From Betaproteobacteria bacterium (GTDB taxonomy: Bacteria > Pseudomonadota > Gammaproteobacteria > Burkholderiales > Burkholderiaceae_C), in NCBI GenBank assembly GCA_016868355.1, contig VGHB01000008.1, positions 1 through 64,000 of the forward strand: a DNA stretch of 64,000 bases, given 5' to 3'. Below, in pieces: positions 23,810-29,284 of this stretch (positions within the stretch are counted from its first letter, which is position 1; every line of letters starts with the position of its first letter). The translations under genes were made by a program, and so were the position numbers. Under the pieces are notes generated by a model that made no database searches, was not told where the DNA came from, and saw nothing but the letters and a program-made list of their open reading frames with translations.

Positions 23810-23896
23810 GCTCGGTGTCAAGCTTATGTGTGTACCGTTTAACGGGTCAGCTGGGCGGGCCTGGCGTGCCGTTCAAGCTGTTGGGTGAGCACTGAG

Positions 23897-25444
23897 ATGC
23901 TGATACTCGACCACGATCGCGCCGGAGGCTACTGGGGAGCGGTGTATGTGTTTACCGCCATCAAGGGCCTGCAGGTGGTGATCGACGGCCCGGTGGGCTG
24001 CGAGAACCTTCCGGTGACCAGCGTGCTGCACTACAGCGATGCGCTGCCGCCGCATGAGTTGCCCATCGTGGTGACGGGGCTGGCTGAAGAGCAGTTGGGG
24101 CGCGAAGGAACCGAAGGCTCGATGAAGCGCGCTCACGCCGTGCTCGACCCCGACTTACCAGCGGTGGTGGTCACTGGCTCGATCGCCGAAATGATCGGCG
24201 GTGGCGTCACGCCCGAAGGCACAACCATCCAGCGCTTCTTGCCCCGTACCATCGATGAAGACCAATGGCAGTGCGCCAACCGCGCCATGCTGTGGCTGTG
24301 GCAACAGTACGGCTTACGCCACATTTCGGCGCGCGTCCCGCTGGCCGGGCGGCCTGCTGGCGAAAAGCCACGCGTGAATATCATTGGCCCGGCCTACGGG
24401 ACCTTCAACTGCCCCAGTGACCTGGCTGAAATTCGCCGCCTGGTGCAAGGCATTGGCGCCGAGGTGAACATGGCTTTTCCGCTGGGCAGCCACCTAGCCG
24501 ATGTGGCCGAACTGACCAACGCCGATGTGAACATCTGCCTGTATCGCGAGTTCGGCCGGGCCCTGTGCGAGGCGCTGGAGCGACCCTACCTGCAAGCGCC
24601 CATTGGTCTGCACAGCACCACGGCCTTCCTGCGCGAGCTCGGCACCTTGCTGGGCTTGAACCCCGAGCCCTTCATCGAGCGCGAGAAGCACACCACCATC
24701 AAGCCTTTGTGGGACCTATGGCGATCGGTCACGCAAGACTTCTTCAGCACGGCCAGCTTTGGTGTTGTGGCTGGTGAAACCTATGCGCGTGGCCTGCGCC
24801 ACTTCCTCGAAGATGAAATGGGCCTGCCCTGTCACTTCGCGGTGTCGAGACGGGCCGGCGAAAAAACCGACAACGCCAACATCCGCCGCCTGATCCACGA
24901 GAAGGCGCCGCTGATCGTCTTTGGTAGCTTCAACGAGCGGATGTACCTGGCTGAGACCGGGCAGAAGGGGCCGATGAAGGCCGCCTACATACCGGCCTCC
25001 TTCCCCGGGCCGATCATCCGTCGCCACACCGGTACTCCCTTCATGGGCTATGCCGGCGCTACCTACCTCGTGCAGGAGGTTTGCAACGCACTGTTTGACG
25101 CGCTGTTCCACATCCTGCCCCTGGCCACGGAAATGGACCAGGTGCAGGCCACGCCCGCACGCGGCATCAGCGGAAGTGACTCCGTTTTGACTTGGGATGA
25201 ACAGGCCCAAGACGCCCTACGCGAATGGGTGCAGTTGCAGCCGGTGCTGGTGCAGATTTCCGCAGCCAAGGGGTTGCGCGACAAGGCCGAGCAACTGGCG
25301 CAGCGCGGCGGCGCCGACCGGGTGAGCCTGCAGCAGGTGCGCCAGGCCTTGGGCCAAACGGCCCGAGCCACAGCGGTGGCTACCCCTTCCGCAAAGAAAC
25401 CCATGGGCGGTAGAGCCACCGCCCGCCAGGAGATACCGGCATGA
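23897..25444 (+). CDS. bchZ: Chlorophyllide reductase subunit Z
   Basis: BchZ, 515 aa, NifK-like partner of BchY. ATG 23897 gives the highly conserved start [19 protein letters not shown]; a GTG at 23885 is in frame too. A cluster-ligand Cys lies in [12 protein letters not shown] (about residue 35). The C-terminal ~90 residues form the helical PCP-reductase-like domain ([26 protein letters not shown]). The stop overlaps the ATG of the 41-aa ORF (ATGA), preceded by a strong SD inside bchZ. Confidence 0.94.
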
Positions 25445-25566
25445 AGCAAGCATGTCCAGTAACAGAACACGTCCAAGCAGTTCGGACTCCCGACGTCGCG
25501 GCATTCGGCCGTGGCTTCCCGTGCTGCGCGGGTTTCGCAGGCGAACGGCCGCAAGGTCGCAATTGA
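25441..25566 (+). CDS. 41-aa ORF coupled to bchZ, preceding pufB
   Basis: Short frame encoding a 41-residue peptide (starts [12 protein letters not shown], contains PCCAG, ends RPQGRN). I do not recognise it. AGGAGA at 25428-25433 lies 7 nt before the ATG, the ATG overlaps the bchZ stop, and its own stop (25564-25566) overlaps the pufB SD GAGGAG (25565-25570). That arrangement suggests it is translated and couples bchZ to pufB. In Rhodobacter this place is held by pufQ, but the peptide lacks a membrane segment and is not PufQ-like. It could be a leader peptide, a decayed gene or a spurious frame. Confidence 0.45.
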
Positions 25567-25577
25567 GGAGCATCTCG

Positions 25578-25724
25578 ATGGCTGAACGGAGAACTTCAAT
25601 CTCTGGCCTGAACGATGACGAGGCCCAGGAGTTTCATTCTTACTGGGTGCAAGGATTTGTGGGATTTACGGCTGTGGCCGTGGTCGCACACCTGCTCGTC
25701 TGGATCTGGCGTCCCTGGCTCTGA
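25578..25724 (+). CDS. pufB: LH1 light-harvesting beta polypeptide
   Basis: 48-aa LH1 beta chain. The cytoplasmic N-terminus ([10 protein letters not shown]) is followed by one membrane span and the terminal WIWRPWL. His20 (the conserved -18 His) and His38 (the bacteriochlorophyll ligand, VAHLLVW) are present. The ATG is preceded by GAGGAG 7 nt away; the frame is open upstream to 25452, but that part is not LH-like. Encodes one half of the LH1 ring subunit that surrounds the reaction centre. Confidence 0.95.
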
Positions 25725-25754
25725 TAGCCCATTGGTCACCTGTCAGGAGGATCT

Positions 25755-25982
25755 GTGATCGCAAATACCCACGCTGAACACGCACGGCTGCATCCACATG
25801 ACGATGCGCGAAGCATTTCGCTCATCTTTGTGTTGGGCTATGTCGTGTTTCTGGTCATTGCCCTGTTGGGCACGGCCATGGGCTTGCACTGGCGGACCTG
25901 GCTGCCCGGTGCCGAAGGCATGACGAGCATCTTTGGCGGTGTGAAGGCGGCTGTTTACACCTTCATGTCTCACTTACTTTAG
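25755..25982 (+). CDS. LH1-beta-like small membrane protein lacking BChl histidines
   Basis: 75-aa single-span protein, start GTG 25755 with AGGAGG at 25745-25750. Not a standard puf gene. Residues about 18-53 align without gaps to LH1 beta: against the local PufB, 11 of 35 positions are identical (D.A, V.G.V.F...A, WR.WL), then PG..G as in longer beta chains. Both conserved histidines are replaced (Ser at -18, Thr at the BChl-ligand position). A ~20-residue C-terminal tail (starts MTSIFGG, ends FMSHLL) follows the WRTWLPG segment. The layout of one span, no pigment ligand and a periplasmic tail is PufX-like. Placement between pufB and pufA suggests a core-complex subunit. Function is inference; a decayed duplicate pufB is the main alternative. 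Confidence 0.8.
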   Translation: MIANTHAEHARLHPHDDARSISLIFVLGYVVFLVIALLGTAMGLHWRTWLPGAEGMTSIFGGVKAAVYTFMSHLL

Positions 25983-25992
25983 GAGCACACCT

Positions 25993-26190
25993 ATGTGGAG
26001 AATTTGGCGTCTTTACGATCCCCTTCGGGCGATGGTCGTTCAAGGCATTTTCCTGTTTGGTCTGGCTGCGATGATTCATCTCGTCCTGCTCAGCACGAAC
26101 AAGTACAACTGGTTCGACGGCGCGAAGAAGCCTGCAGTCGCTTCGGCCAACGCACCGATGCCGACAGCCGTAGCTTCAAGCGGCAAGTAA
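25993..26190 (+). CDS. pufA: LH1 light-harvesting alpha polypeptide
   Basis: 65-aa LH1 alpha chain: MWRIWRLYDP start, one span, the BChl-ligand His in AMIHLVLLST (about residue 28), then NKYNWFDG and an Ala/Pro-rich C-terminal tail typical of betaproteobacterial alpha chains. AGGAG lies 8 nt before the ATG and overlaps the stop of the preceding small gene, so its translation should depend on that gene. Followed by a large hairpin. Confidence 0.95.
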   Translation: MWRIWRLYDPLRAMVVQGIFLFGLAAMIHLVLLSTNKYNWFDGAKKPAVASANAPMPTAVASSGK

Positions 26191-26301: not shown

Positions 26302-27126
26302 ATGGCCATGTTGAATTTTGAAAAGAAGTACCGCGTCAGAGGCGGCACCCTGGTGGGAGGCGACCTTTTCGACTTCTGGGTGGGGCCGTTTTACGTCGGC
26401 TTCTTTGGCGTGACCACGCTCTTCTTCGCGGTGTTGGGAACAGTTCTGATCTTGTGGGGCGCCTCGCAGGGTCCCACATGGAACCTGTGGCAAATCAACA
26501 TTGCGCCGCCCGACCTTTCCTACGGATTGAAACTGGCGCCGCTCATGGAAGGCGGGCTGTGGCAGATCATCACAGTGTGTGCCCTTGGAGCCTTCGTGTC
26601 CTGGGCGCTGCGCGAGGTGGAGATCTGCCGAAAACTGGGCATGGGCTTTCACGTGCCGGCTGCCTTCGGCGTGGCCATCTTTGCTTACTTCACCCTGGTG
26701 GTAATCCGCCCGGTGCTGATGGGTGCCTGGGGGCACGGCTTCCCCTACGGAATCTTCAGCCACCTGGACTGGGTGTCCAACGTAGGCTACCAGTACCTGC
26801 ACTTTCACTACAACCCCGCACACATGCTTGCGGTGAGCTTCTTCTTTGCCACCACCTTCGCCTTGTCCCTGCATGGCGGGTTGGTGCTGTCAGCCACCAA
26901 TCCCAAGAAGGGTGAGTTGGTCAAGACGCCCGAGTACGAGGACACCTTCTTCCGCGACACGATCGGCTATTCGATCGGCACGCTCGGCATTCACCGCCTG
27001 GGCCTGTTCCTGGCCTTGGCCTCCGGTTTTTTCAGCGCCGTGTGCATCGTCATCAGCGGCCCCTTCTGGACACGTGGTTGGCCAGAGTGGTGGGGCTGGT
27101 GGTTGGCCATGCCCATCTGGAAGTGA
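26302..27126 (+). CDS. pufL: Photosynthetic reaction centre L subunit
   Basis: 274-aa L subunit, five spans, binding the special pair, accessory pigments and QA-side cofactors. ATG 26302 is preceded by GGAGG; the open frame further upstream runs into the hairpin. Key ligands are visible: HLDWVSN and HYNPAHML, His191 in SLHGG (L190 equivalent) and His231 in GIHRLG (L230 equivalent), the last two for the non-haem iron. Length and sequence are typical. Followed by pufM after 30 nt. Confidence 0.97.
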
Positions 27127-27156: not shown

Positions 27157-28134
27157 GTGGCTGATTATCAAAACCTCTTCACAACTGTCCAGGCGACGTC
27201 TCGCCATTTGCATGATGGGGTGCCGCTGGGCCCCTACAACAGCTCGCGCGACTTCAAGCCCTGGTTGTTTCACCTGCTAGGCCGCCTTGGAAATGCACAA
27301 ATCGGCCCCATCTACTTGGGCCGCCTGGGTCTGGCTTCGCTGTTTTGCGGCCTGCTGTGGTTCACCATCATCGGCATGAATATGCTGGCTTCGGTGGACT
27401 GGAGCCCGATCCAGTTCGTCAAGCAGCTGTTCTGGCTGTCCTTGGATCCGCCCAGCCCGGAATACGGCCTGTCTATTCCGCCCATGAACGACGGCGGTTG
27501 GTTCCTGATCGCAGGCTTCTTCTTCCTAGCATCCGTGCTGCTGTGGTGGGCACGCATGTACACCCGCGCCCGTGAGCTGGGGTTGGGCACCCACATCGCT
27601 TGGGCCTTCGCGGCAGCCATCTGGTTGACCGTGGTGCTGGGCTTGCTTCGCCCCATCCTGATGGGCAGCTGGAGCGAGGCTGTTCCATACGGCGTCTTCA
27701 GCCACCTCGACTGGACAGCTGCCTTCTCGTTGCGCTACGGCAACCTCTTCTACAACCCCTTCCATGCCCTTTCGATCGTATTCTTATACGGCTCGGCGCT
27801 GCTGTTTGCCATGCACGGTGCCACCATCTTGGCGGTAGGCCGGTATGGAGGCGAGCGCGAGATCGAACAAATTGTCGACCGCGGCACAGCCTCTGAGCGT
27901 GCCGCGCTGTTTTGGCGTTGGACCATGGGCTTCAACGCCACGATGGAGTCGGTTCACCGCTGGGCCTGGTGGTTCGCAGTGCTGTGCCCCTTGACCGGTG
28001 GTATCGGTATTTTGCTCACGGGCACCGTCGTGGATAACTGGTACCTCTGGGCCGTCAAGCATGGTGTGGCGCCTCCGTACCCAGCGGTTTATCCCCCACA
28101 GGTTGACCCGGCCACGCTCATCCAGCCGCGCTGA
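27157..28134 (+). CDS. pufM: Photosynthetic reaction centre M subunit
   Basis: 325-aa M subunit, partner of PufL. Start GTG 27157 with AGGAG upstream ([12 protein letters not shown]). The special-pair ligand lies in NPFHAL, and the iron ligands are His219 (AMHGATI) and the late VHRWAWW His. The C-terminal tail ([13 protein letters not shown]) is the extended form seen where a PufC cytochrome is present. Followed by pufC after 16 nt. Confidence 0.97.
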
Positions 28135-28150
28135 TACACGGAGCACGACC

Positions 28151-29284
28151 ATGAATATTATTCAAAGACTAACCACTGCGGTGATCGCCCTGGGCACGTT
28201 GCTGGCCCTGGCGGGATGTGAACGTGGCGCACCGTTCGAGCGGCCGCCGGTGGATTCTGTGCAGTCGGGCTATCGGGGCACAGGAATGCTGCAGGTCTAC
28301 AACCCCCGAATCCTGGAGCCCCAGATTGAGCAGAATCAGCCGCCAGCGGCTCTGCCGCCCGCGTCTTCTGAGGGCCCGAAGGCTTCCCAGGTCTATCAGA
28401 ACGTCAAGGTGTTGGGAGACCTCAGTGTCGCTGAGTTTGCCCGTCACATGACGGCTATCACGGCTTGGGTTTCACCCAATGAGGGCTGTGTGTATTGCCA
28501 CAACCCGGCCAATTTCGCGGAGGATTCGAAGTACACCAAAGTGGTGGCGCGCCGCATGATTCAGATGACGCAGCACATCAACGTTGATTGGCAGCAGCAC
28601 GTATCCAACACCGGTGTGACCTGCTACACCTGTCACCGCGGCCAACCGGTTCCTTCTAAGATTTGGTTTACCGCGCCCGGCCAGAACAAGGGCGCTGACT
28701 TCATCGGAAACAAGAACGCGCAAAACACCCCTGATCAAGACTCGGTGAAGGGTGCATCATTGCCTTACGATCACTACACCGAGTACTTTAAAGAAGCCAA
28801 GCCCATACGGGTAGCGGGCAACACCGCTCTGCCCACCGGAAACCGCGCGAGCATCCAGCAAGGCGAGTACACCTACGGCTTGATGATGCACATGTCCGAC
28901 TCTTTGGGCGTGAACTGCACCTACTGCCACAACTCAAGGAATTTTGGCGACTGGAGCCAGAGTCCACCGCAACGCACCACCGCGTGGTACGGCATCCGAA
29001 TGGTTCGAGACCTGAACCTCGATTACATGGAGGACCTGACCAGCATCTTCCCAGTCGGGCGCAAGGGTCCCCTGGGTGATGTGGCCAAAGTAAACTGTGC
29101 CACCTGTCACCAGGGTGCTTACAAGCCACTGTATGGCGCCAAGATGGCTAAGGACCACCCTGAGCTGACCACCTTGGTTCAGGTGGTGGCTGGAGCTGGT
29201 GCCGGTGGCGGCGCTGGAGACGCCCAGGCCGTCAAGGCCGCGGCCGATGCCGTGGCGGGTACCAAGCCAGCACCCAGCCGTTGA
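28151..29284 (+). CDS. pufC: Reaction-centre tetraheme cytochrome c subunit
   Basis: 377-aa membrane-anchored tetraheme cytochrome that re-reduces the photo-oxidised special pair from the periplasm. A lipoprotein signal peptide ends in LAG-C (about residue 23). Four CxxCH haem motifs lie at about residues 113 (CVYCH), 158 (CYTCH), 256 (CTYCH) and 316 (CATCH), with methionine axial ligands in nearby helices ([26 protein letters not shown]). A Gly/Ala-rich tail follows. Start ATG 28151; the frame is open back into pufM. Confidence 0.97.

Follow-up and report, generated by a model that had tools for sequence, protein, structure and literature searches.

A gene for an LH1-beta-like membrane protein without the ligand histidines, conserved between pufB and pufA in phototrophic Burkholderiales and a possible counterpart of PufQ

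An open reading frame between pufB and pufA is already in print for two cultured bacteria, as ORF2 of Rubrivivax gelatinosus and as ORF74 of Roseateles depolymerans, and in both cases it is filed under function unknown. For ORF2, the accessible part of PMC12817894 cites Nagashima 1994, aligns the protein with alpha chains only (10-15% identity to PufA2, no alpha histidine) and describes ORF1 and ORF2 as deleted in Gemmatimonadota. ORF74 corresponds to RD2015_RS05155, with pufB (RS05150) and pufA (RS05160) flanking it by locus tags, and the available sections of PMC10037100 report that it is co-transcribed with pufBA and that under carbon starvation it is strongly induced, ranking in the top three loci by size of change.

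Other small membrane proteins of the photosynthetic core offer points of comparison. PufX, protein W, protein-U and the gamma chains are proposed or shown to shape LH1, and their likeness to the gene described here is one of analogy, which for protein W and protein-U is drawn from published descriptions; the PufX gene, according to the accessible portion of PMC9640540, sits after pufM and not between pufB and pufA. PufQ, an assembly and pigment factor with proposed roles in controlling the bacteriochlorophyll/haem branch and in binding ferrochelatase or pigment, is described in the available text of PMC5725709 as having a variable N-terminus, a conserved transmembrane segment and C-terminus with a divergent stretch between them, and a C-terminus predicted to be cytoplasmic, and its gene starts on four bases held in common with the end of bchZ. 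Long-tailed LH1 beta chains, finally, are found in Rhodopila, Rps. palustris and some Burkholderiales (PDB 7xxf, 6z5s, 8z81, 9m8m). In the Rps. palustris chain, density is lacking for the last 13 residues and the mature form spans Ser2 to Ala53 (PMC7806223, in the part available), indicating that the long tail is not in the mature ring of that species.

The window (the whole 64,000-nucleotide stretch of DNA analyzed here) carries a gene in the slot of ORF2 and ORF74. Direct reading of 25755-25982 (+) gives a 75-codon open reading frame with a GTG start, which we refer to as gene X and which encodes a putative single-span membrane protein of 75 amino acids, LH1-beta-like and PufQ-like and lacking the ligand histidines. 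It begins 30 bp after the stop of pufB (25578-25724, +), which encodes a short-form LH1 beta with a WRPWL end and both histidines, and it is followed by pufA (25993-26190, +), which encodes LH1 alpha; NCBIfam equivalog models identify the two products at 82.7 and 63.7 bits, respectively. The Shine-Dalgarno sequence of X, AGGAGG at 25745-25750 (+), forms an anti-Shine-Dalgarno duplex of -10.3 kcal/mol, compared to -8.5 for pufB and -6.5 for pufA, and the TAG of X (25980-25982) shares bases with the pufA Shine-Dalgarno sequence AGGAG (25981-25985, +). Both the 75-codon gene with its AGGAGG and the placement of the pufA signal on its stop codon had been described in a first-pass annotation of this DNA, and the reading bears them out. 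Directly upstream lies bchZ (23885-25444, +; named by sequence and place), whose stop is 133 bp from pufB, a gap too short for a pufQ, and whose last four bases overlap the ATG of a 41-codon ORF1 of unconserved sequence (25441-25566, +). Downstream are pufL (26302-27126, +), pufM (27157-28134, +) and a gene for a pufC-like tetraheme cytochrome with four CxxCH motifs (28151-29284, +), named by sequence and position.

We equate X with ORF2 and ORF74 by position only, which answers the question, left open in the first-pass annotation, of whether homologues had been described. In two R. gelatinosus loci (L014 and L016), a 74-residue X between pufB and pufA is 64 and 61% identical to that of the window. 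A literature search, mostly of papers outside subscription, returned no assignment of ORF2 or ORF74 to the beta or PufQ family, and the kinship reported below appears to be new.

To define how widely X occurs, we combined searches of relatives, species genomes and phototrophs. X was detected in 9 of 60 relatives, eight of which also carry the reaction-centre family, the ninth (G002) lying outside the reaction-centre sample, and a collection of species genomes yielded 92 stretches with X, the best 80 of which were kept. Gene order is nearly invariant: across loci L003-L091, pufA follows X in 89 of 89 and pufB precedes it in 88 of 89, and the single locus without pufB is one in which the contig starts just upstream of X. 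Phototrophs were picked by the reaction-centre family PF00124, positive in 47 of the 299 genomes searched within the family and in 48 of the 399 within the order, which together make 91 distinct genomes. Judged by family-search scores and locus reading, 72 of these 91 reaction-centre-bearing Burkholderiales genomes contain X (in one, G350, X follows pufB and pufA is on a separate contig), which bears out conservation at this site, a check that the first-pass annotation had proposed for Burkholderiales puf operons, and the X-bearing genomes belong to nine families. The other 19 comprise 12 in which PufB is long-tailed and X absent, four with a PufQ-like ORF ahead of a short PufB and likewise without X, and three with broken contigs, two of which were fetched while the third, G592, was judged by a partial pufL match. 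Among 32 phototrophs outside Burkholderiales (27 loci read, five judged by family search) we found no X, a plasmid search with the X of the window gave no match, and in IMG/VR two viral-contig ORFs share only WR.WLPGAE with X, at 12 bits with the X model. X also occurs beside a very different LH1 pair, with a PufA of the form WR.WR..DP.KAI..., at eight loci (L160, L171, L175, L176, L194, L195, L197 and L198), showing that it is not bound to one LH1 subtype.

The gene is under constraint. In pairs selected by greedy choice at dS 0.1-1.2, pooled pN/pS for X is 0.27 (67 pairs; 886/11021 over 1023/3454), indicating constraint that is less than that on pufB (0.16, 65 pairs) and pufA (0.18, 66 pairs), and median omega is 0.18 for X and 0.08 for each of its neighbours. 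Between the window and its two nearest relatives, dN for X is 0.024-0.031 and dS 0.26-0.34, giving a trio omega of 0.08-0.09. These values contradict a dN/dS near 1, the outcome that the first-pass annotation had set against its own reading, and on the grounds of selection and conservation we reject a chance ORF or a decaying duplicate. Predicted anti-Shine-Dalgarno pairing averages -7.5 for X, -7.3 for pufA and -8.2 for pufB over 154 loci, with X weaker than pufA in 80, than pufB in 100 and than both in 70, which gives no clear sign of low X translation or of one copy per reaction centre.

Three segments make up most of the X protein, and they differ in conservation. Following an N-terminus of low mean conservation (0.34), residues 18-42 (25806-25880, +; 0.56) form a transmembrane helix, residues 45-55 (25887-25919, +) read HWRTWLPGAEG and contain a WRxWLPGAE motif (0.83) resembling long-tailed PufB, and residues 59-74 (25929-25976, +; tail 0.77) form a predicted amphipathic tail helix, IFGGVKAAVYTFMSHL. 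The tail, which the first-pass annotation had already pointed out, includes at residues 62-72 some of the best-conserved positions of the family, and its hydrophobic moment of 0.32 is equalled by 3% of shuffles. An AlphaFold2 model built with 32 sequences places helices at 14-42, 46-49 and 59-74 (mean pLDDT 75, pTM 0.57); a Foldseek search with it returned five matches at E up to 10 and none at E < 0.001, and charge bias gave no fixed orientation for X in the membrane.

Aligned gap-free with the local PufB, X has Ser22 and Thr40 in the two histidine columns and has WR.WL in common with it, just as had been proposed from the sequence of the window. Serine and threonine are the window's version of these columns, not the state of the whole family. 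Of 163 X loci, 161 were scored, the two without the anchor motif being left out, and at the bacteriochlorophyll-ligand column (position 0) the commonest residues are Gln (88), Lys (28), Ser (15) and Thr (15). Histidine is found at position 0 in one scored X locus (L195, in G119, is the sole case) and at position -18 in three, compared to 199 and 198, respectively, of 201 scored PufB chains; Trp at +9 is present in 117 of 161 X loci and 200 of 201 PufB chains. Canonical histidine ligation is therefore excluded for nearly all X members, in line with the first-pass prediction that X lacks the normal ligand, and the alignments still allow some other pigment contact. Residue 36, at position -4, is Ala in 97% of a 36-row X alignment. 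Alanine at this position packs against pigment in light-harvesting helices.

Profile and sequence searches tie X to LH1 beta, as had been suspected from the window. With X as the query, phmmer against the PDB recovers LH1 beta chains at E 3e-7, 4e-7 and 2e-5, and all six PDB matches with E < 0.001 are LH1 or antenna chains, beta by name or by sequence; a 36-protein X profile reaches LH betas down to E 6e-16. Neither the single-sequence nor the profile search found a solved PDB chain that is X itself. Pfam and NCBIfam hold no family for X (DUF5337, E 0.05, fell below the cut-off), and the Pfam LHC model PF00556 does not match the X of the window and matches four of 36 members, at E 0.19 at best; the Pfam PufX model PF11511 matches none of these 36. 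In hhalign comparisons, X aligns with long PufB at 99.5-99.7% probability over 75 columns, with short PufB at 97-98% and with PufA at 13-24%, and column-shuffled X (within segments, 30 trials) reaches at most 7.3% with long PufB, 9.2% with the PufQ-like ORFs described below and 27% with PufA. The PufA value thus falls within the shuffled range (median 1.5%), and we reject alpha-chain kinship, which the published comparison of ORF2 with PufA2 likewise failed to show. X is like the long-tailed betas in its full-length profile match, its WRxWLPG-like motif and its C-terminal segment, and unlike them in nearly always lacking histidine at 0 and -18, in its variable N-terminus and in its place outside the PufB clan. 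Twelve tailed PufB chains of Burkholderiales, all from operons without X, keep both histidines; the X model scores them at 74-83 bits in five loci (L168, L169, L170, L172 and L173) and at 52-60 in the other seven. A separate observation concerns chain 4 of PDB 8k5o, a single-copy, 105-residue chain with an antenna domain that matches the X profile weakly (E 0.002), as do many LH betas. It is a possible precedent for a one-copy LH-like chain, and a literature search for it gave nothing.

X also resembles a second group of proteins. A small ORF without the histidines lies between bchZ and pufB in other lineages, and also in four Burkholderiales, and scores up to 46 bits with the X model. We refer to it as the PufQ-like ORF; nine of 12 scored examples read in frame with a codon lying across the bchZ stop (eight ATG and one CTG, in L185). 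By hhalign, X and the PufQ-like ORFs (16 sequences) align at 98.3-98.4% over 71 columns. Because the set was first found by the X model, and then widened by a model of those matches, the comparison was repeated on a subset of seven members that score at most 12 bits with X or were picked by eye (L181), a choice that reduces the bias and does not remove it. This subset aligns with X at 90-95% and with long PufB at 92-93%, against about 5% for short PufB and less than 2% for PufA, and with classical PufQ it gives 1.3-1.4% (6 sequences) or 8-13% (25 sequences). Classical PufQ, as 25 sequences gathered with PF05398, aligns with X at 78-88% over 41-45 columns, spanning the N-terminal and transmembrane part without the tail, with the full PufQ-like set at 77-86% over 62-70 columns, and with long PufB, short PufB and PufA at 0.54% at most; shuffled PufQ reaches maxima of 21.6% with X, 20.9% with the PufQ-like ORF, 3.5% with PufA and 32.6% with long PufB. 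These comparisons are suggestive of kinship between X and classical PufQ without proving it. PF05398 itself matches neither the X of the window nor any of 36 X members, and it exceeds its cut-off in three of 80 genomes, none of them Burkholderiales, while the PufQ-like ORF of G1063 gives a sub-threshold match to it (15.1 bits, E 0.098). We also observed weak PF05398 matches (21.5-24.9 bits), in frames of 114-145 codons, in nine genomes from the order of G1214, four of which have a strong pufQ match as well, and these frames possibly belong to a wider PufQ-related family.

The distribution of X, PufQ-like ORFs and PufB tails within operons is strongly patterned. All 160 X loci scored have a short PufB, extending no more than 3 residues past the model, and in none was a PufQ-like ORF detected; because species overlap between sets and the window itself occurs more than once, these loci are not independent, and L118, which has X, fell outside the scoring by the length filter. 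The bchZ-pufB gap measures 89-201 bp in X loci (median 133, 142 loci), leaving no room there for a pufQ, and 353-524 bp with a PufQ-like ORF where measurable. Conversely, all 12 assessable Burkholderiales with neither gene have the long PufB tail. In five loci (L179, L182, L199, L202 and L203), all outside the order, PufB is short, X is absent and no PufQ-like ORF was detected. One locus of the same family as the window, L161 (G142), has a window-like PufB and no X, with a PufQ-like ORF between bchZ and pufB instead. The bchZ stop is still overlapped by an ATG or GTG in 115 of 120 X loci, and the frame that begins there is short (33-71 codons among the 60 loci listed) and not conserved in sequence; it is probably ORF1 of Rubrivivax and may represent an eroded pufQ start or a leader. 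The mutual exclusion can be inherited instead of functional.

Phylogenetic trees separate X from PufB. An 88-row tree, thinned like its successor by identity, places X in a single clan (SH-aLRT 96) and the PufQ-like ORFs in a second (88). In a careful search of 84 rows and 59 columns, from which four rows with long branches or odd composition were dropped, the PufQ-like ORFs again group as a single clan (100/99), with PufB separated from X and the PufQ-like ORFs together (100/100), placing X outside PufB; X itself falls into two groups, with X as one clade not rejected (p 0.61) and X together with long PufB not firmly rejected (p 0.08). As this tree is unrooted, either the PufQ-like ORFs or PufB may be the sister of X. 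Since X is not nested in PufB, it is no local pufB duplicate, and we reject a recent duplication of that kind. On a bchZ tree, states with and without X intermingle in Burkholderiales, the best tree requiring at least 10 changes, with a single one forced by supported branches. Because supported branches contain only one independent X/no-X pair, they permit no statistical test of the correlation between X and the short PufB tail.

Taken together, these comparisons lead us to propose, at about even chances, that X may be a PufQ-like factor in LH1 and bacteriochlorophyll biogenesis, the Burkholderiales counterpart of PufQ. X would be a small, single-span member of the LH1 beta superfamily, made from the LH1 message without the bacteriochlorophyll-ligating histidines, that does the biogenesis work proposed for PufQ. 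It would hold pigment or a precursor non-canonically in the helix that keeps Ala at -4, and/or steer tetrapyrrole flux or LH1 alpha-beta assembly during insertion of these chains, and its conserved C-terminal amphipathic helix would be a docking or handover element. In other lineages the related element would be the PufB tail, removed from the mature ring in Rps. palustris, or a variant form carried by the PufQ-like ORF. We infer the orthology with PufQ, the pigment contact, the assembly role and the topology from these similarities.

In support of this PufQ-like reading, X matches the PufQ-like ORFs with high probability and classical PufQ is like X and unlike PufB and PufA; X and the PufQ-like ORF exclude each other in the scored loci, with a matching difference in the bchZ-pufB gap; most scored PufQ-like ORFs (nine of 12) share their frame with a codon on the bchZ stop, where pufQ starts; ORF74 is co-transcribed with pufBA and induced; and the trees set the PufQ-like ORFs in a clan and PufB apart from X and these ORFs. 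X is, like PufQ and the PufQ-like ORF, a single-span product of the puf operon without the ligand-histidine pattern, and its variable N-terminus and conserved transmembrane segment and C-terminus follow the PufQ pattern in part. Against it, the Pfam PufQ model misses X, and X lies after pufB, not between bchZ and pufB with its start on the bchZ stop; the PufQ-X alignment lacks the tail, where the ITP.IF of classical PufQ differs from X, and the seven-member scores with PufQ are low; the stretch after the transmembrane segment, WRxWLPGAE, is the most conserved part of X and divergent in PufQ; the PufQ C-terminus is predicted to be cytoplasmic and a beta-like one would be periplasmic; X is nearer by score to long-tailed PufB than to the PufQ-like ORFs; and five loci with a short PufB have neither gene.

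A role in the ring itself is possible, though we regard it as rather unlikely. X could occupy a beta position or cap the LH1 arc as a non-pigmented subunit that interrupts the ring or opens a path for quinone in the manner of PufX or protein W, and a ring cap or quinone gate was what the first-pass annotation had suggested. The nearest relatives of X by score are indeed long-tailed LH1 betas, X keeps the WR.W end and the helix length, its ribosome-binding strength is like that of pufA and ORF74 is co-transcribed with pufBA, and protein W, which replaces one alpha-beta pair, provides a precedent (PMC7806223, in the part available). However, X itself has no match among solved chains, its translation signals and position point to an LH1-like copy number and not one per reaction centre, and exclusivity with the ORF in the pufQ place is left unexplained. 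The cap or gate is not supported as the specific role: that this ORF was never found with X, and that PufQ profiles resemble X, point elsewhere without amounting to proof. The missing ligand histidines, the exclusivity and the absence of the tail from the mature Rps. palustris ring are, together, more readily reconciled with a factor in biogenesis than with a component of the ring.

It is improbable that X merely supplies in trans the C-terminal helix missing from short PufB, for instance for membrane insertion or alpha-beta pairing, with no control of pigment or flux. This would account for the tail-less PufB of all 160 X loci, for the long tail in all 12 assessable Burkholderiales genomes that lack both X and a PufQ-like ORF, and for the tail being among the most conserved parts of X, but the five loci outside the order have a short PufB and neither gene, the tails of long PufB and X differ in sequence detail, and the bchZ tree offers one independent X/no-X pair on supported branches. 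We give slightly less credence still to X as a stoichiometric third LH1 polypeptide that accompanies each alpha-beta pair and seals or tunes the ring in the manner of gamma chains: gene order and ribosome-binding strength permit LH1-like amounts, and gamma-like chains occur in a bacteriochlorophyll a species, yet those chains have 22 residues and run in the opposite direction (PMC9640540, accessible portion) while X has 75 and is beta-like. We saw no spectral or structural sign of an additional antenna chain. Finally, the loss of both ligand histidines and the small size of the ORF could suggest a decaying pufB duplicate or a translational spacer without protein function, which the pN/pS of 0.27, the low omega of the window trio, the conserved C-terminus, a single origin that is not rejected and the spread over nine families make extremely improbable.

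Returning to X as a PufQ-like biogenesis factor, a broader and more doubtful version is that PufQ and X are both pigment-handling paralogues of the antenna beta chain. A beta without its histidines would load bacteriochlorophyll or precursors into nascent LH1, Burkholderiales would have moved it between beta and alpha, and the C-terminal helix would be a handover element that elsewhere is a removable PufB tail. If this were true, the PufQ problem and LH1 assembly would be one mechanism. More generally, the tie of X to both the beta chain and PufQ makes the origin of PufQ open to test. Although the puf operon is the textbook example of a purple photosynthetic core, its antenna part contains a conserved third gene, so far listed as an ORF without known function, in 72 of the 91 Burkholderiales phototrophs examined and in the cultured model Rubrivivax gelatinosus. 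An X chain should be sought in structural studies of betaproteobacterial RC-LH1, and X offers a cultured system in which LH1 assembly and bacteriochlorophyll supply can be probed by one small deletion.
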